This document shows positions 13,415 to 31,700 of a stretch of 38,001 nucleotides of DNA, in pieces (position 1 is the stretch's first letter; each line of letters begins with the position of its first letter). The stretch spans positions 14,842-52,842 of the forward strand of contig CACYQI010000041.1 in assembly GCA_902776455.1 (NCBI GenBank), written 5' to 3'. The notes under the pieces were generated by a model, which made no database searches, was not told the origin of the DNA, and worked only from the letters and a program-made list of their open reading frames with translations. Source of the stretch: an uncultured Bacteroidales bacterium (GTDB lineage: Bacteria; Bacteroidota; Bacteroidia; Bacteroidales; Bacteroidaceae). A program made the position numbers and the translations under genes.

Positions 13415-13437
13415 GGTTTTTAGTATTGATTGCTGCA

Positions 13438-13467
13438 CAAAGATACGAACTTTTCGTGAGAAACAAG
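13438..13467 (-). promoter_or_regulatory. Candidate promoter of the alpha-galactosidase gene
   Basis: Read on the minus strand, TATCTTTG (13438-13445) matches the -7 box TAnnTTTG. CTTG (13464-13467) lies 18 bases upstream, a one-mismatch -33 box with slightly short spacing. The ATG at 13414 follows 24 bases after the -7 box. This supports the internal start chosen for the gene. Confidence 0.6.
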
Positions 13468-13572
13468 CCTGACAAGCGAAGAAATTTGGTGAAAAAGAGT
13501 GGTTTTTGTATCTGATGAGCCGCAAGGGTAAGGCCATCGTATCTGCTTGCGCTCCTCCTGCTGCCAGTAACA

Positions 13573-13895
13573 TCTGTAAATACTTTTCGCATATCGGCTC
13601 GCCCTGGCGGGCTTTTTTTGTTCTGTGGCACTTTGGTCCACCGAGAGCAAGAAAAGGGCTTATTTTGAATGGCAGTTGATAATCAACAGATTACAATGGG
13701 GGATTTTGAAGCACGAAGCAATGAAAATGTCAGCACTCCGTTCTGCTGGGGCAACATCTGCATAGTTTCAGGCAAATTTCGACGTAAAGGAAGGGGGAAA
13801 GCAACGTGGAAGATTGGTCGATGCTCCACGTTGAATCGGCCGACACAACGTGGAGCATCAGAAAACGTGGCATGGAGCATCGGCGATTTACCCAC
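13573..13895. repeat. Interspersed element, copy B
   Basis: This is the second copy of the family seen at 424-712 and 32530-32830. Conserved points are 'acttttcgca', a small G/C hairpin followed by a run of seven T (about 13599-13619, which reads as a rightward intrinsic terminator), 'tgtggcact', 'gggctta' and 'gaatggc'. The second module has 'caacgtgga' and 'gctccacgttg' motifs (about 13802-13870) and 'gagcatcggc'. The open frame 13669-13941 is repeat sequence, not a convincing gene. Confidence 0.6.
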
Positions 13896-14005
13896 GTGGC
13901 GAGGCAAAATCATGTCGCCTTTTTTCGGGGAAAAAGGATGAGGCAGTTCGAGGAACCATTATCACTATAGGCTGAACAAGCGCCAAACAAAAAATCAACG
14001 AACAG

Positions 14006-14272
14006 CCGCGGGCAATGGTACGCAGGCGTCCCGCCTGCGAGATAACAGCCAGCCATCAGCCGCGGGCAATGGTACGCAGGCGTCCCGCCTGCGGAATAAC
14101 AGCAATCCGACATCCGCGGGCAATGGTACGCAGGCGTCCCGCCTGCGGAATAACAGCACCCGCCTGCGGAATAACAGCAATCCGACATCCGCGGGCAATG
14201 GTACGCAGGCGTCCCGCCTGCGGAATAACAGCAATCCGACATCCGCGGGCGAGACGCCCGCGTACCAACGGG
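14006..14272. repeat. 54-bp tandem array with internal hairpins
   Basis: Units start at 14006, 14060, 14114 and 14189, each with 'ccgcgggcaatggtacgcag'. They are 54 bp long, except the third (75 bp), which carries a 21-bp internal duplication. Each contains the hairpin cgcaggcgtcccgcctgcg (8-bp stem, 3-nt loop). A terminal degenerate unit (14243-14272) carries the hairpin sequence in the opposite orientation. Open frames on both strands arise from the repeat. No variable spacers are present, so it is not CRISPR. Confidence 0.8.
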
Positions 14273-14617: not shown

Positions 14618-17176
14618 TTACTTCAGAAGCAGCTTGCGGCCGTCGCGCACCACGATGCCCTTGAAGCCAGCACCAACGCGCTGACCCTGCAGGTTGTAGA
14701 GGACGTCGGACGAAGACTGCTGGGACAGCGGCGCACTGATGGCATCAGGGTCCTGACCCTCGACCGGAGAACGGAGGATATACAGCTCGTCAATGATTTC
14801 ACCATCAAGGTCATCGGTGCCATAGATGCCCGTGACATCGTAGTACTTATCGGCTATCTTCGAGGGGAGGCTTATCTTGGGCGACTTAATCTGGAACTTG
14901 TTCCACAGACGCACTCTGTGGTCGTCGCTGACGGCAAAGACGCCGCCATCGCGCACAAGCGTCAGGCCTCGCACCACGACAAGGTCGCCATAGCGGTCGG
15001 GCGTGAGTTCGAAGCCAAAAATTTCAGTAGGCAGAGGCTCGTCGCCGCTGCTGATGTTGATTTCCTCCATGTCCGAGTCGCCGTCGGCGGGCGTGAACTG
15101 CGGCATGCGAAGGCTATAGGTCAGCCTTCCGTAGATGAAGCCATTGAGCACATCGCCACGCTTGACATTGAGGTCTGTGCCTTTGAGTACCAAGCTACCC
15201 GAGGCGTCGCGAAGGTAGATGTTGTCCTCATAGACATAGAGCACCTGGGCATCGGAGAGCGTGAGCAAGGCATCGTTGCCTTCCTCCATGGCTCGGAACG
15301 AAGCGATGTCAGGCATTTCCCTGAGTTGTGTCACAGTCACGGTGCAGGTGGCACTGAGTCTGTCGTTGGCTACGACAGTGATGTGGGCAACGCCTTCGCT
15401 GTGGGCCGTAACCAGTCCGCTGCCATCGACAGTAGCCACCGACTTGTTGTCGCTGCTGAAGCTGAGTATGGCAGTGGCGGACTCAGGGTCTTGCACCGTG
15501 TTGAGCTGCAAGGTGGTGCCCAGACTGAGCCGGTAGTTGTCGCTGGTGAAAGCGATGGAGGAGAGCACGTCCACCTCGTAGGCTTCGAAGGTGATGACGC
15601 CGCTGTTCTCCTTGATTCTGCGCAGACCGAGGCTGGAAAACTTGCCCGACCACGTCTTGAGGCTTGGCGAAGTCTCGTTGTTGATGGTCGTGATGCCTCG
15701 CGTACCAGGGAAGGGGTCGCTGGCTGAACCGGCAGAAACGAAATAGGTACCTGGTCTCACTCCGCCTGCACGCAGCAGTTCGTAGTAGGGATGCTGTGGG
15801 TTGTCGTTCACGCTATTCTCATATAGCCAAGCAGATTGCTTGGTGGAATCGACGCGGAAGATGAGCATGCCGTGACCGGGCAGGGCGCTGTCCCACTTGG
15901 TTCTTTGGCGGTTCTCAATGAAGAAGGACTCCTTCTTGACGGGAGTGTTCAAGCGGTAGCCGGTGTTGCTCACGTTGAGCGCTTTGAGGCTGAACGAGCC
16001 AGGCTCGGTGATGACCTCTGGTGTAGCAAAGCCCAGAGCATAGCGCTCGAAGAGCGAGAAGCCGCAGGGCGTGCGTCCGTAGTTAAGGTCGCCACCCATC
16101 GCCATGAGCGACCATGTGTCGGGAGTCACGCATTCGCCGTCGTACATGTTGCCAGTGTCGTAGAAATCGGGCAGCCCGAGCACATGGCTGAACTCGTGGC
16201 ACATGGTGCCGATGCCTTCAATCACGCTCCAGTCCGAAGTCCCAAAGAGTTCGTTGGAACAGGCGTAACGACTGAGATAGACGCCGTCCTTACGCACATT
16301 ACGGTAGTAGCTGATGTCAGACTGGTGGGGCCAAAGCAGTCGGCTGTCGTTGCCCTGGACGTACGACCCGATTCCGGAGAAGATGAAGTAAATCATGTCG
16401 ACCACGCCGTCGCCATCGACGTCGTAGTCCTGAAAGTTCACCTCAGAGTCGGCTGCCGTGCAGGCATCAATCATCAGCTGTATAGCATTTTCCGACCCTT
16501 GAGGGTAGTACTGGCTGCGGTTCACTTTCACCGGCCCCACGACATCGAAGGTAGGAACGAACATACCGTCGGAATTGTCGCGGAAGTAGTCGCGTATGCT
16601 GCCCGTGCAGCGTACATTCATACCATCTGCATAGAAGTTTGTGCGATTGTTCCCCGTATAGTTGTCAGCATTAATCATGTCCTCCATGAGCGCGGCATAG
16701 TCGTTGTAGCGGAAAGGACAGTCGTTGTACTCAACGAGCAAAACCAGTCCGCGAAACTGCGAGTAGTCGTAAATGTTGGCACGCCGCTGGCTGAGTGCGC
16801 GTGCCCGCTGCGCCCTGTTCTGGCGTCGCAACTGTGCCATCTGCGTCGTAGGCTGCGGCGCCAGACGACCCGCACTTGCCACATAGGAGCGTTCCTCTGC
16901 CGTGCGCTCGCCGGCATCGTGTGCCAACAGAGCCGTCGGTTCTAACTGATTCTCAGCATTCAGCTGGGCATAGACGTAGGCGCCATCGTCGCGACGCACC
17001 AGCGAAAAGCCGTCTTCCGTGGTATTATAATGGAGGTATTCGTCACCCACCAGACGGATGGTGACGAAAGAGCCGTCAGGCTGGGGCACACGCGTGGTGC
17101 CCCGATAAGCCGGACGAGCATATAAAATGGCGATGCCAAAGAGCATCGCCATTAATGTTAATGTGAGACTTCTCAT
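14618..17176 (-). CDS. Secreted M6-family metalloprotease with Big_2-like domain and C-terminal sorting tail
   Basis: This is a predicted secreted zinc endopeptidase (852 residues, signal peptide about 1-20). A pro-region (about 21-135) precedes the M6 catalytic domain (about 140-470). The zinc motif is HEFSHVLGLPDFYD (His327, Glu328, His331, likely third ligand Asp337). A DxDxDG-type Ca-binding loop lies at 251-260 (YDVDGDGVVD). An Ig-like Big_2 domain follows (about 540-630, 'SVATVDGSGLVTAHSEGVA'), then a further beta-rich domain. The last 26 residues (YNLQGQRVGAG...DGRKLLLK) match tails in three other secreted proteins here. It is the last gene of the SusC/SusD operon, 34 bp after the large acidic protein. 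Its likely role is generating peptides for import. Confidence 0.9.
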   Translation of the reverse strand: MRSLTLTLMAMLFGIAILYARPAYRGTTRVPQPDGSFVTIRLVGDEYLHYNTTEDGFSLVRRDDGAYVYAQLNAENQLEPTALLAHDAGERTAEERSYVASAGRLAPQPTTQMAQLRRQNRAQRARALSQRRANIYDYSQFRGLVLLVEYNDCPFRYNDYAALMEDMINADNYTGNNRTNFYADGMNVRCTGSIRDYFRDNSDGMFVPTFDVVGPVKVNRSQYYPQGSENAIQLMIDACTAADSEVNFQDYDVDGDGVVDMIYFIFSGIGSYVQGNDSRLLWPHQSDISYYRNVRKDGVYLSRYACSNELFGTSDWSVIEGIGTMCHEFSHVLGLPDFYDTGNMYDGECVTPDTWSLMAMGGDLNYGRTPCGFSLFERYALGFATPEVITEPGSFSLKALNVSNTGYRLNTPVKKESFFIENRQRTKWDSALPGHGMLIFRVDSTKQSAWLYENSVNDNPQHPYYELLRAGGVRPGTYFVSAGSASDPFPGTRGITTINNETSPSLKTWSGKFSSLGLRRIKENSGVITFEAYEVDVLSSIAFTSDNYRLSLGTTLQLNTVQDPESATAILSFSSDNKSVATVDGSGLVTAHSEGVAHITVVANDRLSATCTVTVTQLREMPDIASFRAMEEGNDALLTLSDAQVLYVYEDNIYLRDASGSLVLKGTDLNVKRGDVLNGFIYGRLTYSLRMPQFTPADGDSDMEEINISSGDEPLPTEIFGFELTPDRYGDLVVVRGLTLVRDGGVFAVSDDHRVRLWNKFQIKSPKISLPSKIADKYYDVTGIYGTDDLDGEIIDELYILRSPVEGQDPDAISAPLSQQSSSDVLYNLQGQRVGAGFKGIVVRDGRKLLLK

Positions 17177-17210
17177 TTACAAATATGCTTGAGTAAGCTC
17201 AGAAGTGTCA

Positions 17211-20069
17211 TTATTTAACAAGAGCCTTCTTGCCGTTCTTCACTACAATGCCCTTGTAGTTCTTGCCAACCTGCTGGCCTGCTACATTGTAAGCACGGCT
17301 GTTCTTGACGGGAGTCTTCTCGATAACAGTGTGAATGCCATCGGGATCGATGTCCTGCGTAACGGTGACTGTGAGGCGGGCACCAGTCTGGAAGAAGACA
17401 ATCTTACAACTGCGGTTCTCGATGCCTTCGGGAAGAGCCTCGACATTGAACACGAGGTCATAGTCGATGCCATTGACGAAGTACTCGTATTCTTCGCCTT
17501 CTTCATCAGTTGCGGTAGCAGTGGTGTAGTCCTCATTGGCAACCTCGACGGTAAGCCATTCGGGCAGTTCCTCTGTTTCATCACCGTCCACGATGATGCT
17601 CTCCGGTTCGAGAAGGTAAGTGGGTTCTTCGGTTTCTTCGTCCACATTATAGTACATGGGATCTACATGGATGGAAGAAGAGCCGCCGTCCTTAGCGAAG
17701 AGAAGGTCTGTGTCGTCCTCGGTGTAGAGATAGCCATAAGTTGCATCAATGAGGCCGATGAAGAGCTGGGGGAACCATGAGGTGTAGTAGTGCAATCTGC
17801 CTTCTTCCTCGCCAGTCTGAGTAAAGTAAGTGGATGGAACCTTGCTGACATCAATACCCTGACTGCCAAGCACTCCGCTGAAGGTGCCGTTGTCCCAGCC
17901 CTCGATAGCTATGATAAACTCGTCCTCGATGAACAGGTAATCTACAGTTTCGCTCATGCCAAACTCATCTTCCACATAAAGTTCTGTGAACTCAACAGCA
18001 GTGAGGCCGGCATCATATTCGGCATTCACGTTGTCTGTTGTTGCATCACCTTCGGCAATGATGTCGCCCAACGTGATTCTTCCACTTGAACTACGCTGGC
18101 ACTTGTAAATCTTGATATGCAGGTTGAAGTCTTCTTTTGCTTCAAACTTTAGCAAAGGCAGAGTGACGCCAGTGAGGAAAAGAGGAGCGGAAGGCTTGCC
18201 CTGATAAGAATAAATTGTGGACATGCTGGTACGTTCATACAGGTCAGGTGTAGCCCAGTTGGTGTAGAAAGTCAGATCGCCATCGGGGTTCTGACGTGTC
18301 ATCGTGGCATACGTACCATCACCATAGGAGAAGAAGCTGGCTCCACGACCTGCATAAGCACGAAGATTCTCATAACGTGCAGCACCTTCATCGGTCAGAG
18401 TTTGTCCTGTTCCCCATACAAACGGTTCAGAAGCCACAGTCTCGTTGATTCCGACAAGTGAGAGATTCTCATAGACAGATCCGCCCTTGGCGTAGAGGCT
18501 GAAGTTCCTCTTATTGCCGGTGATGGTCGTCTCATTGTCCTCATCGTCATACTCCGTAACAGACCATTCGAAGCCTGTCGCAATATCCATAGTGTTATTA
18601 TGGAAGGAGGTGGGAGCATAGGCACCGACGACTGCAAGGTTGTCGTTGTAGCCATAGCCCGACAAGCCTAAGCCTGCGAACAGTACCAATTCCTCTGGCT
18701 CACAGGAAACATCTGAAGGTGCTTCAATAGGAGCATCAGCAAGACGATACTTCACGTTTTCCATATAGACATAGCCTCCCAAATAGGACTCGAAAGTGGG
18801 ATCGTACTCCTCGGTACTCCATGCACCAAGAACGATGCTTTCATCTTTGATGGTTGCCAAACCATACTCCTCTTCTGTAAGCACAATGGAGCCATCATCG
18901 GAAGTACCACTGAAGAGCATAACATAGACTGTACCTTCTTCTTCGTCCTCGTAGCTGGCAATGACTTGGGGCTTGACAGTAATCGTGCTGCCTTCCTGCT
19001 CATATTCCACGTCGATGCCGTCGGGGTAAAGATTAGCGAACATGTCAACCATAGGAGTCATGTTGACAAAGAAGTGTGTCTCATCGTCGTCCATAGCGGT
19101 TGTACCGCGCTGCATAATCCAGCTAACTGATTTATCTTCCTCTTCGGAGAAAGCGTTTGTGCCATGAGCCTTATACTCCTCGTCGATGCGGGTCTCAATG
19201 CGATAGTAGTATCTTACGCCAGCTATCAATTCGTCATAGCCCAAGAAGGCTTCGCTATCGCCCATGTCGGGGTCAAACTCGACGTTGGCGAACTCTCCGT
19301 AGAGAATCTGATTGCCATCAATGAAAGAAAGCTTTCCGTTTTCATCAATCTCCAGGTGGATGGTGCCGTCTTCGTCATCGCTGTTGGCAGAGAAGATGGT
19401 GATGTAGAACGTAGTATCCTTAGCTTCGTTCTGGAAGCTTGCAACAGCTTGTGGTTCGATGACAATACGATTCTCCTCCTCGACAGTGTACTTCACGGGA
19501 ATGCCATTGGGGAAAAGCTCGCCATAGATGCTTGGAACGGGAATCACATCCACAAACACTTCATGGTCTTCCTCTTCGCCTGTCTCGCTATTGGTGAAAG
19601 TTGCAACCGATGGCCTCATGGTCCACTGCACCGGCTCTCTTGTGCCGTAGTCAACACCCATACCGGTGTACGACTCTGCAAATGCAGGAGCCTTGCGTGC
19701 TGCCTTAGCCCGCGATGAAGCCTGCGGGTTCAAGGTCATTGTAGGCTGGAAGTTAACCATGTTGCGACTCTGCATCTTACCCTTGCTGAAGGGCTTGAAC
19801 TGGCTCTGCAGAACTGGCAGTGAAGATGCGTGCTTTGCACGAGCAACCGGCTGCAGCTTGGCAGGGTCGAGAGTGAGCTTGTTTGTAGGAGCATAAGAGC
19901 TCATCTTCATGTCCTGACGTGGAGCAACGGCTTGGAAAGAACGCTGGCTCTGAGATGCTTTCACCACTTCCTGCTTGGCCTGTGGTGCGACTGATGACTT
20001 GGATTTGAACTGCGCGCTTACAGACAATCCGACTAATGCCATCATGGAAAGAAGTAACAGTTTCTTCAT
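17211..20069 (-). CDS. Large acidic secreted protein, duplicated N-terminal domain, BACON-like domain
   Basis: I do not recognise a named family for the full 952 residues. A signal peptide (1-19, ending SVSA) is followed by a basic Ser/Gln/Lys/Ala-rich segment (20-130). The remainder is strongly acidic. Residues about 147-262 and 315-418 are diverged copies of one beta-rich domain (VQWTMRPSVATF / VSWIMQRGTTAM; LFPNGIPVKYTVEEEN / LYPDGIDVEYEQEGS). Near the C-terminus is a BACON-like domain (about 800-905, 'LPEWLTVEV' to 'RLTVTVTQD'), then the shared sorting-like tail (YNVAGQQVGKNYKGIVVKNG). It lies between the DUF4302-like gene and the M6 protease, with short gaps. Possible roles are substrate binding at the surface or acting as a protease partner. 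Confidence 0.7.
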   Translation of the reverse strand: MKKLLLLSMMALVGLSVSAQFKSKSSVAPQAKQEVVKASQSQRSFQAVAPRQDMKMSSYAPTNKLTLDPAKLQPVARAKHASSLPVLQSQFKPFSKGKMQSRNMVNFQPTMTLNPQASSRAKAARKAPAFAESYTGMGVDYGTREPVQWTMRPSVATFTNSETGEEEDHEVFVDVIPVPSIYGELFPNGIPVKYTVEEENRIVIEPQAVASFQNEAKDTTFYITIFSANSDDEDGTIHLEIDENGKLSFIDGNQILYGEFANVEFDPDMGDSEAFLGYDELIAGVRYYYRIETRIDEEYKAHGTNAFSEEEDKSVSWIMQRGTTAMDDDETHFFVNMTPMVDMFANLYPDGIDVEYEQEGSTITVKPQVIASYEDEEEGTVYVMLFSGTSDDGSIVLTEEEYGLATIKDESIVLGAWSTEEYDPTFESYLGGYVYMENVKYRLADAPIEAPSDVSCEPEELVLFAGLGLSGYGYNDNLAVVGAYAPTSFHNNTMDIATGFEWSVTEYDDEDNETTITGNKRNFSLYAKGGSVYENLSLVGINETVASEPFVWGTGQTLTDEGAARYENLRAYAGRGASFFSYGDGTYATMTRQNPDGDLTFYTNWATPDLYERTSMSTIYSYQGKPSAPLFLTGVTLPLLKFEAKEDFNLHIKIYKCQRSSSGRITLGDIIAEGDATTDNVNAEYDAGLTAVEFTELYVEDEFGMSETVDYLFIEDEFIIAIEGWDNGTFSGVLGSQGIDVSKVPSTYFTQTGEEEGRLHYYTSWFPQLFIGLIDATYGYLYTEDDTDLLFAKDGGSSSIHVDPMYYNVDEETEEPTYLLEPESIIVDGDETEELPEWLTVEVANEDYTTATATDEEGEEYEYFVNGIDYDLVFNVEALPEGIENRSCKIVFFQTGARLTVTVTQDIDPDGIHTVIEKTPVKNSRAYNVAGQQVGKNYKGIVVKNGKKALVK

Positions 20070-20101
20070 AATGATTTTGAATTACAAGGTTGATTAATCA
20101 G

Positions 20102-21469
20102 TTATTTCAATATATATATATTATCGTTTCCAACTCCATGCAACTCACATCCTGTGGGAAGGAAATAGTTGTCGGGAATCATGTCGTAAGTGCCAGAGAG
20201 CGTAGCAGCAAACTGACGCGCCAAAGTCTCTATGTTGCACTTATTGGCCATTGTGGTAAGGTTGCGGTCGGGCTTCTCGTCATCAGAATACGCTATCTTC
20301 ATCTGTCCGAACTGAGGAAGAACGGTGGTCAGCGAAAGGCCGGCCGTGTTGGTCTTATTCTTAACCTTGAATGTGAGCACCAGGCCCTTCACCGCTCCGC
20401 TACCCGTAGAGCGTCCGAGTCCCACTTTATCCAAGGAGTAGTCCTTGTTGAACTTCTTGGCTTCGACGTCAATCTGCGCCAGCAGAGCTTTCTGCTCTTC
20501 AGAGAAGTTGTCCTGGTCGAAGTTCCATACAGAACTGCGAGCATTGACAATGTAGTTGTCCCATGTGGGAATGACCTGCACGCTGTCATTCTCAGAAACG
20601 AGATGTGTCTTGTCGGGTGACAAAGAGAAATCTTGGAACGAAGTGCGGCCGATGCGGTTCCTGTGCTGCAAGCAGAAGCCATTAGGAGTGAACACACAGT
20701 TGACAATGGAAGGGAACAGCGGGTCGTAAACACGCTCACAATAAGTGATGACGCCACTGCGCAAGTTCGTGAAGTAAAGGGTGTCTGTTCCGCAAACCAC
20801 ATAGTAGGACGTAATGACGCTATTGGTTATGTAGTTCTTTGTAGCCTCGGTGTCCTTGATGTAGTCCTGCCAGGGGCGGTCGCAAGGCACGAAGCGCACC
20901 CTCGAAGCATAGCGTTGACCGGAGAACAGGATGTTGTTTCCCTCGTAGCCATGGAAGACAAGGTTCTGGTCTCCACACATGCCTTCACCATTCTTCACAA
21001 GATTGTTGGGAGCAGATGACGGGTCGACGGGGTCGGTAAAGACTGTCAACACGTCATTCCAACTATTGAAGGCCAGCACAGGTCCTTCTTCCTTTACTAC
21101 ATCGTACAGGCTGTTGAATTCTGTATATTTATTGGCATTGCCATTGCGCAGGAAGCGATGATTGCCTGCCAATGTCACTTTGCCGTCATTGTAGAAACGT
21201 CCATAAAGGTTGAATCCTTCGAAATCCACATCACCTGTTCCTGCCACAAAGTACTGAATGACCCAACCATTGTTGCCATTTGTACTTTGCTCCACCAGTC
21301 GGGACTTCAGGCTTTCGTTGAAATGCACAATGCGCAGGGCGGCACTCTCATCGAAGGAATCGTTCTCTTCGAAGCGGCTGCATCCCGTGAAGACGAAAAG
21401 CGAAGTGCTAAGAGCGAAAGAGAACAAAAGCCCAAACACTCCTTTATGATTTATGATGTTCTTTATCAT
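20102..21469 (-). CDS. DUF4302-like lipoprotein of the SusC/SusD locus
   Basis: The 455-residue protein has a lipoprotein signal ending FVFTGC (Cys30), followed by an acidic 'SRFEENDSFDES' stretch that favours surface exposure. The body opens with 'WVIQYFVAGTGDVDFEGFNLYGRF', shortened here, and continues with beta-rich sequence and a helical segment 'FSEEQKALLAQIDVEAKKF'. I associate this architecture with DUF4302, which in Bacteroidetes is found next to SusC/SusD pairs that also carry a HExxH lipoprotein (from memory, unverified). It is the fourth gene of the operon, 50 bp after the metallopeptidase lipoprotein. It probably binds substrate or supports the SusCD complex. No catalytic motif is visible. 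Confidence 0.75.
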   Translation of the reverse strand: MIKNIINHKGVFGLLFSFALSTSLFVFTGCSRFEENDSFDESAALRIVHFNESLKSRLVEQSTNGNNGWVIQYFVAGTGDVDFEGFNLYGRFYNDGKVTLAGNHRFLRNGNANKYTEFNSLYDVVKEEGPVLAFNSWNDVLTVFTDPVDPSSAPNNLVKNGEGMCGDQNLVFHGYEGNNILFSGQRYASRVRFVPCDRPWQDYIKDTEATKNYITNSVITSYYVVCGTDTLYFTNLRSGVITYCERVYDPLFPSIVNCVFTPNGFCLQHRNRIGRTSFQDFSLSPDKTHLVSENDSVQVIPTWDNYIVNARSSVWNFDQDNFSEEQKALLAQIDVEAKKFNKDYSLDKVGLGRSTGSGAVKGLVLTFKVKNKTNTAGLSLTTVLPQFGQMKIAYSDDEKPDRNLTTMANKCNIETLARQFAATLSGTYDMIPDNYFLPTGCELHGVGNDNIYILK

Positions 21470-21519
21470 TTCTATATTCTGCTTAATCCTTTTTTCGTTA
21501 AATCCTTATATACTCACAC

Positions 21520-22794
21520 CTATTTCAAGTCGAAGATGTTGACATCACTCTTGATGTAGTCATTAATCTTGTTCTGACGCTCGCGCACTTCAGCACGAAT
21601 CTCGAAGATGTGGAGTCCCCAGTTCTCTGTGTACCACTGGGTGGCGATGTTTATCTTCTTCAAGATGGCGTTGATGCCTTCAATCTCGTCTGCTGTAGTA
21701 TAAGACACCCAAGGCAGAAAATCATTCTTGAAAGAGGTAAATGTGCGGAAGTCCTCGTACTTGTACATAGGCACATTCGAGCCGCTCTTCGCATTGTAAG
21801 CAACTGCTGTGCTGCGATGAGCTGCCAGGACATAGCGTTCATCCTCCTCGTATTCGCTGGTGTTCTCGTTGAAAGAGTGAGTCTGCTTCAAGAGCTTGAA
21901 GTTGTTCCAAGGTTTCGAAGGGTCATCGAAGTTGGGAATAGCCAACGAATCAATCAGTACCAACACCTCTTCCTTGTCACCTTGACGCATGCCCTTGCAG
22001 CAGGCATTGATAAGGCGATTCATCCAGCGGACATCGTTATCGGTGATGATGCACGACAATGTCTCCACGAAGTCCTCATAGGTAGCCGATGATGCGTAGT
22101 GAGTCAAGAAGCCCAGCTGATGCGTAGTGACGGAGTCACGCTCGTTCCAAGTCATGGGGTCGTACGAGCTGGAAGTCACCTGGCCGAATGCAACGGGATA
22201 GGCTTTAGTCTGGTGCAGGATATGGGAGAACTCGTGGTGCATGGTGTGGAAGTAGTTCTCGTTGAGCACATCCACGTCTTCCTCTGAATAGGGATTGGTC
22301 AGAGTGTTTGTAGCTTGGTCGTACTGAGGACAAGCCTTCATCTCGTTGATCTTGTAAAGCGTAATCTTCACGCCACCTGAAGCAGTACCCAACACCTCGG
22401 TACCCGTACTGGCATTATAGCCGGACGAACCGATGAAGTGGAAGATGCGAGGACCATACTTCTTCATAAATTCTTCGCCTGCATACTTTGTATAAGTATC
22501 ATAGAAAAGATAACGGATGAAATGAGCCAGCAACTGTGAACGGCCATAGTCTGCAGGAGTCAACTGGAACTGGAGGTCAGAGGACATGAAGTCGAAGCGA
22601 TACTTCACATCCACATTGTATGGAACGACAAAGTTGTCGTAGAGCCACTGGTCGAAAGGAGCTGTGGATGAATTCGGGTCAACCACAGGAACTGTTGTGT
22701 CGAAGATGGATTCCGTAAAGTCGTCGTTGGAACGGCAAGAAGAGAACGCTGTCACCACGACAACCAAACTAAATATATATAGTACTTGTTTCAT
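21520..22794 (-). CDS. Zinc metallopeptidase-like lipoprotein (substrate-import-associated HExxH type)
   Basis: This is a predicted outer-membrane lipoprotein (424 residues, lipobox FSSC, Cys20) with a gluzincin-type motif HHEFSHILHQ (His187, Glu188, His191). The signature matches what is known as the substrate-import-associated zinc metallohydrolase lipoprotein family found beside SusC/SusD genes (TIGR04549, from memory). Family members are of a size consistent with this protein. It starts 23 bp after the SusD stop, so it is certainly part of that operon. It may trim captured polypeptides at the surface before transport. Its substrate and activity are untested, and it could have lost activity while retaining binding. 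Confidence 0.85.
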   Translation of the reverse strand: MKQVLYIFSLVVVVTAFSSCRSNDDFTESIFDTTVPVVDPNSSTAPFDQWLYDNFVVPYNVDVKYRFDFMSSDLQFQLTPADYGRSQLLAHFIRYLFYDTYTKYAGEEFMKKYGPRIFHFIGSSGYNASTGTEVLGTASGGVKITLYKINEMKACPQYDQATNTLTNPYSEEDVDVLNENYFHTMHHEFSHILHQTKAYPVAFGQVTSSSYDPMTWNERDSVTTHQLGFLTHYASSATYEDFVETLSCIITDNDVRWMNRLINACCKGMRQGDKEEVLVLIDSLAIPNFDDPSKPWNNFKLLKQTHSFNENTSEYEEDERYVLAAHRSTAVAYNAKSGSNVPMYKYEDFRTFTSFKNDFLPWVSYTTADEIEGINAILKKINIATQWYTENWGLHIFEIRAEVRERQNKINDYIKSDVNIFDLK

Positions 22795-22817
22795 TGTATT
22801 TCTTTATTCGTTTTGCA

Positions 22818-24587
22818 TCAATTGATAGTCAGCTGTGTGGGTTTCGTGGCAAGGCTGCCAGTCTGATTCAGCGAAGGAACGCTACGGTCGGTTGAGGGAT
22901 AGCCAGCCTTCACGACATTCTGCGGAATCTGGAAAACGCGACGGGGGTCATTCCATTGCAGTACATCCTGATGAACTTCGTCCTCTGCCGGTCCGCGGTA
23001 AGCATGCTTGACGGTAATGCCGTAACGCTTGATGTCGAACCAACGCATTCCTTCGAACATGGTCTCGATGCGACGGAAATGGAGGATGCAGTGCAGCACG
23101 CGCATTTCGTCCTCGGCAAGCACGGGCCAAGTATCACTCATGTCCTGAGGATGAAGTTCACTAATATAGATGTTGTTGGCAGAAGTGCCACGATACTTAT
23201 TGTTGATGCCAGCCTGGTCAAGTGGCTTGTCTATCATCTTGGAACTTGTCCAGTAGCCCAAGTCCTGAATAGCACCAGCACGGTCGCCCAAGTAGAGTTT
23301 GGCTTCAGCGCGGCAAAGTAAGGTTTCCTCAGCTGTGAAAGGCTGGTAGAGGATGTGGACAAAGCCGATACCGGCAATCTTGTCAGTATATTCGAAGTAC
23401 TCGTAAACGCGGAAAAGCCAGATGCCGTACTCCTGCTTGCCAAAGAGGAATAAGTTACCTGCATAGGCTGGTAGATAACCCGACCAGTTCGGACCGCCGC
23501 CGTTGTAGAGGATGCCGACCGTGGAGGGCACATTGTAATCGCTGTTGCCGGTGTTGATGGCAAAACGACAAGTGGAAAGCATGCGGTCCTGAAGAGAGTA
23601 TGTAGATTGGATGAGGAAGTTGCAGGCAGCCTTCTCGTCGTTGTAGTCGTTGAGTCGAGAATCCATCGTATTGGTGTTGAGCGAAGCCCATTTGCGAAGC
23701 ATGGATGCCGGATTGGAACCCAAGGCTGCGTTGGCATACTTCACACACTTCTCATAATCGCGCTTAAAGAGATAGAAACGTGCGGCAAAGGCATTGGCTG
23801 CATTGCGGTTGAAGTGGTAGGCAGGCACTTGATACTTAGAGTCGTCGATGAGGTTGATGCCTTCCAGAATATCCTCTTCTATCAGCCTATACACCTCTGC
23901 CACGCTCTTACGGTACTTGGTGTCGCTATAGTCCACAGACACAGTCTCTTCCACTTCCTGCACATAGGGGATGCCCCAGTCATTGGCACTCTGGGCTTCG
24001 TCCTTATAGGCTTCGGCGAAGACATTGACCAAGACGAAGTGGAGGTAGGCACGCAAAACGTGAGCCTCGCCCCATGAATGCGAGAACTCCGGGTCGTGAG
24101 CCGGGTCTTTACTCATCTGGCGCATGGCGTTGATAGCGTGGTTGGCAACAGCGATGCCGGCATAATAGGCTTCCCATACCTGATAGGGTGTGTCCTGTTC
24201 GCTGGTGTTGTAGTTCATGATATCCTTCCACTGGTAAGCTTCCTCGTGGAATAAGGAGTAAGCATCGTTGTGAGTGGCTTTGAGGACGACGTTGTTATCC
24301 ACGAAATTATCGCCGCCCAGCTCGCAGATGACAGCGGGGGTTGCCACCGGGTAAGCCGAAGTAAGCAACTTGCGAACCTTGTCTGCGTTGTCGATTTCTG
24401 TACGATTGTCGGGGGCATCGTCGAGCGCAGAACACGAAACGAAGAGTGAAGAATGAAGGACTAAGAATGCAACACTAAGCAGACTCATCATCCTGTTCAT
24501 GCTAACTTTCCGTTTCAACATATTGTTTTTCATTTCTATCATAATATCTTGTTTCTTTGTCCTACCTTTCTGCGGTAGCATATTCAT
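22818..24587 (-). CDS. SusD/RagB-family nutrient-binding lipoprotein
   Basis: This is the surface lid/binding partner of the SusC channel. The lipobox is FVSC (Cys52 from the first ATG). The first ATG (24587) gives an unusually long 33-residue n-region. Internal ATGs at 24533 (MKNNMLKRK) or 24500 (MNRMMSLL) would give normal signal peptides and may be the real start. SusD hallmarks are the TPR-like helical N-terminal half (about 85-290) and the C-terminal part with 'EDEMRVLHCILHFRRIETMFEGMRWFDIKRYG' (partial), where 'R..E...EG.RWFDIKR' is the family signature. It lies 18 bp after SusC and 23 bp before the metallopeptidase lipoprotein. Confidence 0.95.
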   Translation of the reverse strand: MNMLPQKGRTKKQDIMIEMKNNMLKRKVSMNRMMSLLSVAFLVLHSSLFVSCSALDDAPDNRTEIDNADKVRKLLTSAYPVATPAVICELGGDNFVDNNVVLKATHNDAYSLFHEEAYQWKDIMNYNTSEQDTPYQVWEAYYAGIAVANHAINAMRQMSKDPAHDPEFSHSWGEAHVLRAYLHFVLVNVFAEAYKDEAQSANDWGIPYVQEVEETVSVDYSDTKYRKSVAEVYRLIEEDILEGINLIDDSKYQVPAYHFNRNAANAFAARFYLFKRDYEKCVKYANAALGSNPASMLRKWASLNTNTMDSRLNDYNDEKAACNFLIQSTYSLQDRMLSTCRFAINTGNSDYNVPSTVGILYNGGGPNWSGYLPAYAGNLFLFGKQEYGIWLFRVYEYFEYTDKIAGIGFVHILYQPFTAEETLLCRAEAKLYLGDRAGAIQDLGYWTSSKMIDKPLDQAGINNKYRGTSANNIYISELHPQDMSDTWPVLAEDEMRVLHCILHFRRIETMFEGMRWFDIKRYGITVKHAYRGPAEDEVHQDVLQWNDPRRVFQIPQNVVKAGYPSTDRSVPSLNQTGSLATKPTQLTIN

Positions 24588-24605
24588 CTTTCTTTATACT
24601 TCACT

Positions 24606-27600
24606 TTAGAATCCCAAACGCACTGTTGCGGTAAACTGCTTGTTGATTGGTGTAGCCACGCCGCCTGAATTAATGAACTCGGGGTCCTGACCATTCAGCT
24701 TCTTGTCTGAATAAAGGAGGCAAAGGTTCGTTGCGGCCAACTTTATAGAGGCGGAGTTGATGAACGACCTCTTGATCCATCCGTCGGGCAGCGAGTATGT
24801 GAGGGCTACCTCCTTCAAGCGGATGAAGTCGCCACAGGCGATGCGTTCCGTAGAATAGTTGTAGGCGTTGTAGGCCGTGCGCAAGTCGGTAGAACCGTAA
24901 CGGTCAACCTGGTTGCGAGAAGCAATGACGGGAATGTTGGTGAGCCTCTCGTCGCCGGAAATCATCCAACGGTTCTTGAACTCGCGGGGAAGAGCGGAGA
25001 GGTCGCTGTAGGCATAGGAGAAGACGGGGTCGAGGCGCACGACATTGCCACCGGCATAGGTGATGAAGAGGTCGAGCGAGAGGGTGCCCCAATTCTTGCT
25101 CTTATAGCTGAAGGTATTGTCGAAAGAACCATAGAATGTGGGGTCGGAAGGACCTTCATAGACAAGGAATTTCTGCAGGTTCTCTGTCTCTTGGAAGTTT
25201 ACGTCGCCGACGGTCTTTTCGCCATATTCGTTATAGACCTGCGGCAGGCCTTCGGAGTTGAGGCCGGCAAACTGGTAGCTGAAGATGGAGCGGACGGGAT
25301 AGCCTTCGATGGCATAGCCCAAGCCTGTTACCAAATCGACGGCACGGCTTGCTACCTCGAGCGAGGTTATCTCGTTCTTCGCCTTGGAGAAGATGAAGTC
25401 GGATGTCCATTTGAAGCCGGCTTTGTCGATGTTGACAGTTGAGAGGCCTAATTCCACGCCGTGCGACTTCATGTCGGCCACATTGGCATATTTAGCAATC
25501 TCACCGCCAGCACCTTGCGTGTAGGTACGGCCTATCAGGTCGTAGTTGTTGCGTCCATAGACATCGAAGGTCAGGGCGATGCGTTCCTTGAGGAAACTCA
25601 GGTCTATGCCGAAGTTCCATTCGTGCTTCTTTTCGTACGTAAGTTCCGAATTGCCGAGAGAGGAGATGTAGATCTCCGACTCAGCAGCGGAGGTGAAGGG
25701 ACGCCACGTGTTCTGCGTGTTGAAGATGGCGTTGGCGTTGGTAACCCATGATGGGCCGGTGTCGGCAGTCAGCGAGTAGCTGGCACGGAACTTCACCTGC
25801 GAGAGCCATGACCTTGTGCGATTCATGAACTTCTCGTTGGTCAGGTCGTAGGAACCCGACACGTTCCATGTGGGGAGCCAGCGGCTTCGTGTGCTCTTGC
25901 CGAGGCGGTTAGTGCCTTCGTAGCGGAACGTTCCGTTCAGGGTATAGCGCTGGTCGAAGTTGTAGTTGAACTGACCATAGTAGGCCATCGAGTTGGTCAG
26001 GGTATAGGATTCGCCGAAGTAGTCGGTGTTCTCCTCGTTCATCTGCTTGAGCCAGAGGTACGGCGTATAGGTGATGCCGCCATTGTCGAACTGGTAGCCC
26101 CAGCCTGTCCAGTTCGTCGATGTCCTGCGCACAGAAGAGTATTCGGCGCCGGCCATTGCGTTGAAGGTATGCTCCTTGCCGCGCTTATCTTCGAATACAT
26201 TATTATATTGGCCCATGAAGCGGAAGGTGTTGGAGCGCATGTTATCGTCGTACTGATACTTGATACCGCCTTGAGGCAGAACGGTTTCCGGCAGAGCCAG
26301 CTCGTTGTCGGGGTCGGTATAGAGCAGGCTATTGGCATAGCGGACTGTTGAGTTGTCGTCCTGGGCATCTACGCCGGCACGATAGGCATTGGCCTGGTTG
26401 GCTTTATCCATCACGTTGTGCTGGCGCTTGGTATGCGAGAGACGCGAGGAGATGAGTCCGCTCAGACGCACCGACTTGATGGGCTTGTACTCCAGTTCGC
26501 CACGGAACATCAGCTCCGTCACCTGAATGTCATTGTAGTTGTACTCCAGCTCGTCGAAGATGTTGAAGCCCGTGTAGAAGCGGGTATAATTAATCTTTGG
26601 GTCGAGGCAGCGGCTGGTGTTCAGCGCATAGCTGAAGGGGTTGATGTCGAAGTCGCGCTTCACTTCGCCTGTCACCACGTCGGTGGTGCGGTTGAGCGAG
26701 CCAGGAGCTTCCTGCTTACGATAGCTTCCCTGAGCGGCAAGCTTCACGGCAAGCAGGTCGGCACCCTTCTTGTCCTTCAGTATGTCGTAGGACGTGTTGC
26801 CGTTGAACGTGTAGCGGTTCACGCTGCTGCGATTGACGAACTGGCCGGGATCTGTCAGCACAGACATCGAGAAGTAGGTCTGCGAGCGGTCGGTACCGCC
26901 TGCGATGCTGACGGAGTGGTTCTGCTGCACTTTGTTGGAGAACAGGAGGTCGAACCAGTCGGTGTTGCGGAACTCGGCAGCCTGGAGGTAGGCATTGCGG
27001 GCAGACTCGGTGTTCTGCAAGCCGAAAGTACCCGTGAGGGGATCGTAATTGCGCAGCTGCTGGAACATGTAGCCATAGACGCCCGTGTTCTGGGCATTGA
27101 CCATGTTGTCCAGCTGCAGCCAGCCCTTGTCGTACATTTCTTTATATACGCCCATCATCTCCTGAGAGTTCATGATGTTGTAGTCGTTGTAGCTGGGCTT
27201 GAAGCGAGTGGTGAACTCGCCCGTATAGTTCACGCTGGCGCGACCCTTCGAGCCTTTCTTCGTGGTAACAACAATCACGCCGCCCATAGCGCGGGCACCG
27301 TAAATCGAAGTAGCCGAACCGTCCTTCAGGACCGTGAACGACTCGATGTCGTCGGAGTTCAAGCCTGCCACGGCAGAGGAAATCAACGTCTTGGCATCGC
27401 CTGAAGCCAAGTCGTCGGCGCTGACATCCACGTTGTCCTCGTAGATGACGCCATCCACCACCCACAGGGGCTTGGAGTTGCCGTAGATAGAGGTTGCGCC
27501 GCGCACACGAATCTTAGGCGAAGCACCAAACGTGCCGCTGACGTTCGTCACCTGCACACCTGCCACGCGACCTTCCAGCGAGCGGCTCACGTCGGCCATA

Positions 27601-28001
27601 CCCGAGAGCTTTATCTTCTCGGCATCAACCGTTGTGGCAGCACCCGTGAACAATCGCTTGTCAATCTGCTGCTGGCCGTTCACGATGACCTCCGTCATTT
27701 GCGTGTCTTCGCTGTGCAACAGGATGCGCATGCCGTTCTTGGCCTTCACCTTCTCGGTGCGCATGCCTATCATTGACACCACCAGAACGGCGTTGTGCTT
27801 GACGTCCGACAAGCTGAACTTGCCGTCAAGGTCTGTAATTGCTCTCTTCTGTGTTCCTTCCACCAACACGTTTACGCCCATTAGCGGCTCGTTGTCGTCG
27901 GCAGAGATAACTGTTCCCGATACTGTCGTTTGCGCCAAAGCCATCCCCACAGAAAGGAACAGCAGTGCCACGACCAAACTTAATTTCCTATATATAAACA
28001 T
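24606..28001 (-). CDS. SusC/RagA-family TonB-dependent outer-membrane transporter
   Basis: This is the outer-membrane import channel (1131 residues). It has a signal peptide (1-23, ending MALA), then a CarboxypepD_reg-like domain (about 26-105, 'VSGTVISADDNEPLMGVNVLVEG' in part) and the TonB plug (about 115-240). The plug includes 'IRVRGATSIYGNSKPLWVVDG' in part and 'VLKDGSATSIYGARAMGGVIVV' in part. The 22-stranded barrel ends in an aromatic C-terminus (FTATVRLGF). No STN domain is present, so regulation through a trans-envelope anti-sigma partner is not indicated. It is first in a six-gene operon with a long 5' leader. Partner genes point to peptide or protein import like RagAB rather than glycan uptake (inference). 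Confidence 0.96.
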   Translation of the reverse strand: MFIYRKLSLVVALLFLSVGMALAQTTVSGTVISADDNEPLMGVNVLVEGTQKRAITDLDGKFSLSDVKHNAVLVVSMIGMRTEKVKAKNGMRILLHSEDTQMTEVIVNGQQQIDKRLFTGAATTVDAEKIKLSGMADVSRSLEGRVAGVQVTNVSGTFGASPKIRVRGATSIYGNSKPLWVVDGVIYEDNVDVSADDLASGDAKTLISSAVAGLNSDDIESFTVLKDGSATSIYGARAMGGVIVVTTKKGSKGRASVNYTGEFTTRFKPSYNDYNIMNSQEMMGVYKEMYDKGWLQLDNMVNAQNTGVYGYMFQQLRNYDPLTGTFGLQNTESARNAYLQAAEFRNTDWFDLLFSNKVQQNHSVSIAGGTDRSQTYFSMSVLTDPGQFVNRSSVNRYTFNGNTSYDILKDKKGADLLAVKLAAQGSYRKQEAPGSLNRTTDVVTGEVKRDFDINPFSYALNTSRCLDPKINYTRFYTGFNIFDELEYNYNDIQVTELMFRGELEYKPIKSVRLSGLISSRLSHTKRQHNVMDKANQANAYRAGVDAQDDNSTVRYANSLLYTDPDNELALPETVLPQGGIKYQYDDNMRSNTFRFMGQYNNVFEDKRGKEHTFNAMAGAEYSSVRRTSTNWTGWGYQFDNGGITYTPYLWLKQMNEENTDYFGESYTLTNSMAYYGQFNYNFDQRYTLNGTFRYEGTNRLGKSTRSRWLPTWNVSGSYDLTNEKFMNRTRSWLSQVKFRASYSLTADTGPSWVTNANAIFNTQNTWRPFTSAAESEIYISSLGNSELTYEKKHEWNFGIDLSFLKERIALTFDVYGRNNYDLIGRTYTQGAGGEIAKYANVADMKSHGVELGLSTVNIDKAGFKWTSDFIFSKAKNEITSLEVASRAVDLVTGLGYAIEGYPVRSIFSYQFAGLNSEGLPQVYNEYGEKTVGDVNFQETENLQKFLVYEGPSDPTFYGSFDNTFSYKSKNWGTLSLDLFITYAGGNVVRLDPVFSYAYSDLSALPREFKNRWMISGDERLTNIPVIASRNQVDRYGSTDLRTAYNAYNYSTERIACGDFIRLKEVALTYSLPDGWIKRSFINSASIKLAATNLCLLYSDKKLNGQDPEFINSGGVATPINKQFTATVRLGF

Positions 28002-28131: not shown

Positions 28132-28165
28132 CAAAGGTAAGACTTTTTTTTGAATTATTTGCAAA
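28132..28165 (-). promoter_or_regulatory. Candidate promoter of the SusC/SusD operon
   Basis: On the minus strand, TTTG (28162-28165) and TACCTTTG (28132-28139) are separated by 22 bases, slightly above the usual 19-21. This leaves a leader of about 125 nt before the SusC ATG. The leader is very A/T-rich around 28065-28100. No ECF sigma, anti-sigma or hybrid two-component gene lies in the window. Confidence 0.6.
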
Positions 28166-28340
28166 TTGTACGAGATTATTTAAAATAAACTTACAAAATT
28201 ACACTTTTGGGCCTCGTTATGCAAATAAAAAACATGATAATCTGCCTTCTTCGGCACACAAACACGCCCGGCTCGCCTTCTGCCGACAGGAGGATTCTGC
28301 AACAATCCGTACCACCAAAAGTGACTCTCGAAGCGCCGCA

Positions 28341-28791: not shown

Positions 28792-31700
28792 CTATTTTAT
28801 CGCAATCTTCTTTCCGTTCACGATGTAGAGGCCGGGCTGTGTAGGCTTGTTTACGCGGCGGCCGCTCAGGTCGTAGGTTGCCCCGTCTGCGTCCAGGCCT
28901 GCATCCACAGTCTGGATAGCATCAATCAGGTCATCTTCGCTGGTGCCTGTGTAAACCACTTTACTTTCATTTTCTTCTTCATCATCGAAATAGAAAAGTG
29001 CTTCGAAAGCATCTGCGGTAAATCTTTTCTTATTGACAAGTCCCATGCTACCTTCCTCCAGAACGTAAGCTTGACTTACATTACGTATCGTGTATGAGCC
29101 TGCAAAGGCTCTTGTGAGGGTGCCTCCCAGCGAGACACCCCAAGAAAGTTCTTGTTCTCTTCCCTCGAGCTTGACAAATCCAAAGTTGGGGTTGACGATA
29201 TCGGTGCCGCTCGTATTCCTTATTATATAGGGCTTATTGGCTTTTAAATCAATAACACTTGTGGTGAAGTCGAGGACTTCTATACCGGGCAGGCTCTTGG
29301 ACTCCGTCGATATTTTGAATTCCCTGATATCGCAATCCTGCAGCACGCTGCCAATCCGCTTCACGTTGAACGGCAGGCAAATGGTGCGCCAAGTGCCATC
29401 GCCCTTGATAGTGAGGTTGTTGATGACATAGAAGGCTTCCTTTCCATAGTGGTTGAAGATAAACTCTTCGTTGTCTTGGTAGGCATCAAAAGTAACCACT
29501 TCGACGTCGTCCGGCAGGATGAGCAAATCTGCAGCCACAGAGCCGTCAACATTACGGAATACTTTGTCTGAAAGATAACCGCCCTCAGGAGAATAGAGGG
29601 AGCAATTCTTTAACTCATAGCTGCCGAAGCCAGACAGGGCAGCTCCGGTGCTGCTGATATCCAGCTTGCTACCCGTGACAAAGAGTTTCGCTAAAATGGG
29701 TTGCCCATTAGTGGGTTTGATCCAGTTGAACACCATACCGTTTGTGCCTTTCAGTTTGAGTTGGGTATTATTGATTATGATGGTCGAGCCCATCGATGAG
29801 TTTCTTGTGATTATGACGGCATCATTTTCGTCGGAATTAAGGCTGAGTATGCCAGGACCTTGGAAGGTGAGTGTTCCTATTTTTGCGGAGAGAACACTAT
29901 TGCTTGATCTCAACGTGCAGTTGCCGATGGTGTGTATTTTCAACGTGGCCAAATCTGTTTCGAGGGATGCTATTCCGTTGACTCTGCGCACATAGAGCCT
30001 GTTCGAGAACACGTCGAAGCTGATGGTTCCATTCTCCGGAGTGTAGCTCTGCACCTCGTTGCCGTTTAGCTTCAGGTCGTAGCGCATGTTGGAGATGGAA
30101 ACATCGTCAATTACGGGAATTGTGGTCGGTCCGTAGTTATCGCAATAGACGAGTTCATGGGTAGAGGGGTTGATGGTTATGTCCTGGTCGCTGTCCGGGA
30201 TATTGCCGCACGTTCTGTCGTCCGTTTCCCACATGCCGGCGAGGGGTTTAGATGTGCCTTTGATGGACATCTGGACTAATTGGATAGAGCCGCATGCGTT
30301 GGCCACATTATTGTATATGCCAAGCTGTTTCCCGTCGCCTTCTATGTTTAAGGTGACTTTACTGATAGTGGGCTTCCCCGCTTGGATAAAGGCATGCTTG
30401 GGGCTTCCTTTCAGGGTGAGTTGTTTCGGATTTGTGGTGCCGGAGATGGTCAAATCTCCGCCTGAGTATATCGCATAGTTGCTTTGGCTGGAGGTCGTGA
30501 TTTCGTTTATGCCATTCGCGTTAATCCTCAGCCCTCCCATACCGAACCGGGAGTAAATAGGGATGCTTGTTTCGTTGGCTCTGGATAAGTCAGCCTTTAG
30601 GTTATTCATGGTGAGTATATTTGTGGAGGGGTCAAACTGTAGCGTGCCTGTGGCATCATCGGCGAGCAGGCTGGCGAGGTTGTCCCTGTTCTTCTCGTTC
30701 ACCTGAGTGCCGTTAACATAGAGATCATACTTTTCCCAGCCTTTGATGACAGTCTGATAAGCCCAGGGGGTATTCCCTGAAACGATGGTCGTGTCTTTGA
30801 CGGCTCCGCCTTGAGGCGTTGTTATATCGCATTCATCAAGTTGAATAGATTTTACGTAGATAGCCATATCTTGGAACGAAGAACTGCCATTGAGAGGCTG
30901 AATCGTAACCACTTGATTGCTCGATGGGCTGAATGTGATATAGCCTCCCCTTATGCCATAGGTAGAGCCATAGATATTGACCGCTTCACCTATATTAGCT
31001 TTATTATAGCCGAAGAGGCCGGCAAAGGGACCTTTAAGCGTTATGTTTCGGATAGAAGTGGGGCGACTATTAGAATATGAATGATACAAGCCATATCTAT
31101 TCCCGACGAAGCTGTAGTTGCCACCGTCGATGGTGACGCCCTCTTTCTCTACGGTGATAGCACCCGGATAGGTGTAGTTCGTGGAGGCATCGACACTTGC
31201 ATTCATGGTAAGAGTATTAGTAGAGGCATTCCATCTGCTGTCGCTCGTGAGAATAGGCTCACCGTTCAGACGCACGCCGGTATATTCGCTGCTACGGAGG
31301 ATTACTGCCTTCTTGACTTTCTCTTTCTTTGTTTCGCTTGTATACGTCATGAAATCGTATGAATCGCCACTATAACCATATACATAGTTACCTCCTAAGT
31401 AGCAGTCCACCAAAACTGTTCCGGAATACCATCCTAATGCATAGAAATTAGTATGTAACGTACCTTTGGCGCCCTGCATTGTGACGTGTGAGTCCTTGAA
31501 ATAGACTTTTCCGTACTTGTGCGAGATGCAGTAATCATTCATTGAGGTTAGTTCCAAGTCATTGAAGCCGGAGATCGTCAGCTTTGCATACGTTTCCGTT
31601 TCATTGCTGTATATGCATTCTTCATCGCCATAGCTCCCAAGATATACACGTGTATTGCTCGCGGCTGTCAATGTGGTAGGTACGTCGTAACGTATGACTT

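Follow-up and report, generated by a model that had tools for sequence, protein, structure and literature searches.

By default, loci built on a SusC channel and a SusD lid (SusCD) are taken to serve the uptake of sugars, and a polysaccharide utilisation locus consists of a SusCD pair together with a glycan-active enzyme in the operon. Here we analysed a minus-strand cluster of six genes (14618-28001) in a stretch of 38,001 nucleotides, hereafter the window, from an uncultured Bacteroidales bacterium of the family Bacteroidaceae (assembly GCA_902776455.1, contig CACYQI010000041.1, positions 14,842 to 52,842), whose genome has close relatives from ruminant guts. The cluster encodes a SusCD pair, a zinc metallohydrolase lipoprotein (Mx1), a DUF4302 lipoprotein, an acidic secreted protein of 952 residues (P952) and a secreted M6-family metalloprotease. 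Of the loci described so far, the one nearest to it is the Capnocytophaga iron capture system (ICS), icsACDEFGH, which uses serotransferrin (PMC5429918). According to the available part of that report, B739_0103-0098 of Riemerella are homologues of icsC-H, the icsE match being a substrate import-associated zinc metallohydrolase, and are up by log2 3.1-3.8 under iron limitation. The ICS of Capnocytophaga canimorsus, its Riemerella homologue and the window share the order SusC, SusD, zinc metallohydrolase and next gene, the ICS order being second-hand; in the same part of the source no M6 protease is named and the Riemerella cluster is iron-regulated, whereas the window continues with P952 and M6. 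BT3958-BT3961 of Bacteroides thetaiotaomicron also have the order SusC, SusD, protease-like lipoprotein and DUF4302, a likeness drawn from published annotation alone, and are reported to respond to mucin O-glycan. BT3958/3959 has been described as a mucin O-glycan locus induced by the core 1 disaccharide (PMC5238430, PMC13088901) and BT3960 as a putative calpain-like protease enriched in vesicles (PMC6222051), and BT3958-3959 and BT3961 (DUF4302) are reported to go down 2.6-3.6-fold in iron-depleted cells (PMC10434189). Lastly, RagAB of Porphyromonas gingivalis is described as a SusC/SusD-type pair fed by secreted proteases and taking up peptides (PMC11817032). The analogy to RagAB drawn in an earlier note on this DNA is retained in function only, as the nearest solved SusC to that of the window was 8ypu (315 bits, E 1e-92), with 8ypt also above RagA (E 9.7e-57). 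To our knowledge, RagAB has neither Mx1 nor DUF4302.

The first four genes of the cluster form its constant part. SusC (1131 aa, 24606..28001) is a SusC/RagA-type TonB-dependent outer-membrane channel (TIGR04056, E 1.3e-174) and SusD (589 aa, 22818..24587) a SusD-type lid lipoprotein (PF14322, SusD-like_3, E 2e-31; PF07980, SusD_RagB). Directly behind them, Mx1 (424 aa, 21520..22794; PF15890, Peptidase_Mx1, E 4.4e-66; TIGR04549, E 1.6e-74) is a full TIGR04549 member with 250.5 bits against a cut-off of 75, and it is followed by the DUF4302 lipoprotein (455 aa, 20102..21469; PF14135, E 4.6e-26). The curated name of TIGR04549 is substrate import-associated zinc metallohydrolase lipoprotein, and therefore the link between an HExxH lipoprotein and import had already been noted by curators; that model (with PF15890) covers a single lipoprotein, whereas DUF4302 as a constant fourth gene and a secreted tail that changes belong neither to its name nor to the model itself. 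We found no paper treating the function of the TIGR04549/PF15890 family, none on the function of the quartet under the names DUF4302, PF15890, PF14135 or TIGR04549 in a search that had most subscription literature outside it, and, by text search, none on 8ypt, 8ypu or 9urd, the last of which is with 4l7a a solved relative of Mx1. The importer core is known in outline from the TIGR04549 name, the ICS order and the B. thetaiotaomicron locus; new here are the constancy of the quartet, the separate SusC lineage and the changing tail.

To follow this order we searched TIGR04549 in 301 genomes of the family (present in 81, above the cut-off in 77) and in a class-wide sample of 395 genomes (present in 23, above the cut-off in 17). 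After removal of two loci without Mx1 (L063, L169) and 11 duplicates, the 110 loci fetched left 97 distinct ones; 70 of the 110 came from records many of which are titled rumen or other ruminant-gut metagenome-assembled genomes. Genes were called by a simple longest-open-reading-frame script and the loci were gathered through Mx1, so that the conservation given here is conditional on Mx1. The strict order SusC-SusD-Mx1-DUF4302 was found in 91/97 distinct loci. The exceptions were L124, in which SusD is split in two, L090, with conflicting gene calls on two strands, and L071, L099, L100 and L102, in which no BLAST match to DUF4302 was found behind Mx1; four scanned proteins of the tail set, listed without their loci, matched the DUF4302 Pfam model. 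In other families of the class the order was kept in 12/12 quartets (11 fetched loci, 10 genomes, with susC split in two pieces in L221), and all 12 Mx1 proteins had HExxH. A simple lipobox pattern was present in 91/98 Mx1, 85/98 SusD and 79/93 DUF4302 proteins. As a separate observation, the window's own genome carries on contig C5 a second SusC-SusD-Mx1 cluster (L071), its Mx1 being of a short form and its neighbours tail-bearing. Contig C15 of that genome (L177) has a further M6 gene, located upstream of a run with two SusC genes, where a search for Mx1 gave none.

In a tree of 76 hand-picked rows (as for all our trees, a quick search without bootstrap), a branch with support 100 separated the sampled SusC of Mx1 loci (36/36) from 40 SusC of genus-sample genomes whose loci have no Mx1, so that by sequence the SusC of Mx1 loci is a separate lineage among the sampled proteins. 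Additionally, in 17 genomes of the genus sample the mean number of SusC was 4.0 with Mx1 (n=7) and 8.2 without it (n=10; p 0.008), in an exploratory, post hoc comparison of incomplete genomes; the lower number fits a protein-leaning life and proves nothing.

Both HEFSH sites reported in the earlier note are where it had placed them and are kept among relatives. In Mx1 the motif occupies residues 187-191 (22222..22236, minus strand) and HExxH is present in 92/97 aligned proteins; E244, conserved in 97/97, is a possible third zinc ligand. The M6 protein (852 aa, 14618..17176) scored 157.2 bits with TIGR03296 against a cut-off of 110.8 (E 8.1e-46), also matched PF05547 and has a Big_2 domain (PF02368). 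Its HEFSH (residues 327-331, 16184..16198, minus strand) starts HExxHxxGxxD, which we take to be the full M6 motif, and both histidines, the glutamate, G334 and D337 are retained in 36/38 aligned sequences. The two sequences departing at HExxH were L083, a 332-aa match cut by the end of the locus, and L152, a protein of 613 aa first tagged M6 by BLAST that proved to be Omp28-like and was removed from the M6 count.

The order of all six genes, unlike that of the first four, is not kept across loci: the fifth and sixth genes vary. Counting as tail genes those on the same strand at a gap of at most 700 bp, we found a peptidase in the tail of 40/97 loci, M6 in 34 (28 at a gap of at most 300 bp), C10 in 5 and C11 in 1, M6 genes upstream of susC in L095, L110 and L125 being left out of the count. 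Two of the C10 loci were scanned singly and five were counted in the tail scan, alongside five I69 inhibitor-domain matches. As controls we used 40 loci hand-picked from 102 SusC without Mx1, 35 of which have a tail protein beyond SusD. With M6 and C10 recounted by the same profiles in both sets, and with three case and one control M6-profile matches (E about 1e-12 to 1e-10) excluded as likely cross-hits of a shared C-terminal tail, an M6 or C10 tail was found in 39/97 case loci versus 5/40 control loci (Fisher p 0.0013); peptidase tails are therefore enriched in Mx1 loci, not exclusive to them. The 80 control tail proteins gave 3 C10 and 2 M6 matches and, among the first 25 families listed of 74, GH92, GH53, GH85, amylase and GH76 (2 each) and GH66 and GH97 (1 each). 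The case tails gave single further matches to GH127, M49 and S13 among the first 25 families listed of 68, in a Pfam scan that omitted 104/192 tail proteins, these belonging to the P952, second-type and M6 clusters, which were known through some representatives. Given the cut listings, rare peptidases or glycosidases may have gone unseen in either set.

In a SusC tree, the C10 loci L116, L122, L148 and L150 form a clade with support 99, nested in a supported clade of 25 rows that includes 15 M6 loci and 6 in which no peptidase was seen, and their SusC are 83-88% identical to that of the window; loci with different tail proteases have therefore kept closely similar importers. The nesting would suggest that M6 preceded C10. 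L077, which also has a C10 tail, is placed far from them in the tree. The tail of seven further loci (L152-L157, L076) has Omp28-like proteins in which CGWC or CPWC forms a thioredoxin-type motif, assigned above the Pfam cut-off in one case, below the NCBIfam cut-off in two and by BLAST cluster and motif in the remaining ones. Their occurrence in the place of the protease suggests that they may handle disulfides of the substrate.

Since the recognised tail enzymes that replace each other mostly act on protein, we consider protein cutting and import the most likely function, and it seems somewhat more probable than not that the locus serves protein utilisation at the outer membrane, with a fixed importer core and the secreted M6 and P952 in front of it. 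The best reading of the cluster is an ICS-like importer specialised for protein. SusC, SusD, Mx1 and the DUF4302 lipoprotein would form a fixed complex on the outer membrane; P952 would bind or present the substrate, M6 would cleave it ahead of the importer, Mx1 would trim it after the M6 cut, and SusCD would take in the peptides using TonB energy. The capture, cleavage and import of a polypeptide proposed in the earlier note thus gains from the co-directional genes, the kept HExxH sites, the enriched M6 and C10 tails and the separate SusC lineage, whereas the import of peptides is inferred. The idea of a locus built around two proteases did not hold, because the constant part is a quartet with a single HExxH lipoprotein and M6 is a swappable add-on. 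If protein utilisation is correct, the SusC lineage, the metallohydrolase/DUF4302 pair and the protease tail would let annotators flag likely protein-utilisation loci, rumen Prevotella-like bacteria would gain enzyme candidates for protein breakdown, and the Capnocytophaga-type iron capture locus and the mucin-linked Bacteroides locus could join one machine family. A broader form, for which we would go no further than a tentative proposal with chances a little below even, is that the importer is a class-wide and anciently fixed base for general protein capture, on which lineages swap front ends (P952 or other proteins with M6, C10, C11 or thioredoxin-like proteins), so that the substrate range would shift through the tail and not through the transporter.

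Several observations weigh against protein utilisation. No M6, C10 or C11 tail was seen in 57/97 loci, in some of them at a contig end, and M6 or C10 also occurs behind the 5/40 SusC without Mx1 mentioned above. HExxH alone is no proof of peptidase activity, and five Mx1 proteins do not have it: those of L164-L167 (REFAN or REFAT) and that of L102 (QLTRR). In L164-L167, where the zinc site is lost, GH2 lies downstream and a peptidase was not seen, which speaks for protein utilisation; against this, the gap to GH2 is -4 and -1 bp in two of these loci but 630-641 bp in the other two, and in L102 no GH2 was seen. The fifth protein of L164 bears a dockerin domain.

As quartet relatives have been reported with both glycoprotein glycans and iron, these two are serious rivals. 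In the first, the proteases would open glycoproteins of mucin-like or plant type, and the glycans or glycopeptides released from them would enter through SusCD, which agrees with the mucin O-glycan response reported for the B. thetaiotaomicron locus of the same published order, with the GH2 genes downstream of four quartets and with the GH127 match in the tail set. However, the window operon has no glycoside hydrolase, the recognised tail enzymes of its close relatives are M6, C10 or Omp28-like, the GH2 loci are the ones in which the Mx1 zinc site is lost, and BT3960 is likened to Mx1 by published annotation and not by sequence. Taking these points together, we regard a glycoprotein glycan system as unlikely.

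The second rival, in which a host iron-binding protein would be stripped or digested and iron or an iron-peptide complex imported, as reported for the Capnocytophaga ICS with serotransferrin, appears still less probable to us. The induction of the Riemerella icsC-H homologues under iron limitation speaks for it, as do two genes ahead of susC in 7/11 loci of other families, coding for about 200 aa and for 370-410 aa, sizes like those of sigma/anti-sigma pairs. On the other hand, BT3958-3959 and BT3961 are reported to fall when iron is depleted, and no iron gene was among the families listed for the scanned tail proteins, iron boxes not having been sought. The same listing included no toxin or immunity family, although no search was aimed at them, and import through the channel of a folded or toxic protein of interbacterial competition, which the proteases would guard or process, seems very improbable.

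Within the favoured protein-utilisation system, P952 (17211..20069, minus strand) would be the substrate-binding or presenting component; that it sets the choice of substrate, as the earlier note put forward, is a conjecture. It is acidic (pI 4.2, with 160 D+E and 67 K+R) and, as the earlier note had found, of no recognised family, no Pfam or NCBIfam model matching above its cut-off. A domain about 130-140 residues long occurs twice, at residues 147-287 (19209..19631) and 315-441 (18747..19127), with 32% identity between the copies (E 8.6e-19), and the alignment of two shorter relatives starts only at residue 314-325, so that the number of domains varies. A BACON-like stretch at residues 831-905 (17355..17579) reached 18.5 bits with PF13004, under the cut-off of 25 bits. 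The AlphaFold model is beta-rich and multidomain (pLDDT 80, pTM 0.65); by sequence no solved structure matched (best E 0.5), and the model gave weak multidomain beta matches only, with TM-scores of at most 0.27 among the best 50 listed. Across loci, P952-like proteins are the largest BLAST cluster of fifth genes (49 entries, of which two are parts of a single gene), followed by a second type of 386-1382 aa (20 entries, two being pieces) and by other proteins elsewhere. The simple lipobox pattern was found in 0/44 P952-tagged and 0/19 second-type proteins. The predicted structure of the DUF4302 lipoprotein is also confident and beta-rich (pLDDT 88.9); we took no function from it, as it gave partial beta-barrel matches only (fibrillin 5, TMt 0.41; ToxS, 0.59), and sliding clamps matched with a lower E but a TM-score of 0.08-0.15.

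The C-terminal ends of P952 (17214..17291) and M6 (14621..14698), both on the minus strand, are alike in sequence. This tail of about 26 residues is borne by four window proteins, the other two being encoded at 28792-32001 and 35561-37885, with the pattern Y-[DN]-x-x-G-x-x-[VL] ... G-[IL]-x-[IV] ... G-[KR]-K ... K, and matches to the end of P952 were also found on many proteins of the genus genomes. A short signal for export or anchoring is one possible role. A classic sorting domain of the type IX secretion system on P952 or M6 was rejected, TIGR04183 giving 8 matches in the genome and 0 on the window's contig; SprA is present in the genome.

The coordinates confirm the layout described in the earlier note, with six co-directional genes separated by 18, 23, 50, 32 and 34 bp. 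Likewise, family scans recognised neither a glycoside hydrolase nor a polysaccharide lyase, nor any other glycan-active enzyme, among the six genes, which sets the cluster apart from a polysaccharide utilisation locus as defined above, and no regulator was recognised beside it in the window. Two matches to TTTG-N17-23-TAnnTTTG, which we take to be a Bacteroidales-type promoter pattern, lie just upstream of susC on the minus strand (28132..28165 and 28194..28225; pattern matches only) and none lies inside the cluster, the window having 4 in total against 0.45 expected. This placement is in keeping with a single transcript for the six genes.

The upstream neighbour of the cluster is a 1069-aa protein without Pfam match. 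Elsewhere, an extracytoplasmic function (ECF)-type sigma factor gene lies directly upstream of susC in L116 and a FecR protein gene upstream of it in L098. About 1 kb downstream of the cluster there is a GH36 gene (11249-13573), which we did not count in the system because of this distance and because in two close relatives, L103 and L104, that place is taken by a different gene, of 717 aa and on the opposite strand. Between the GH36 and M6 genes, repeated units of the type GTACGCAGGCGTCCCGCCTGCGG were spotted by eye at 13995-14260.

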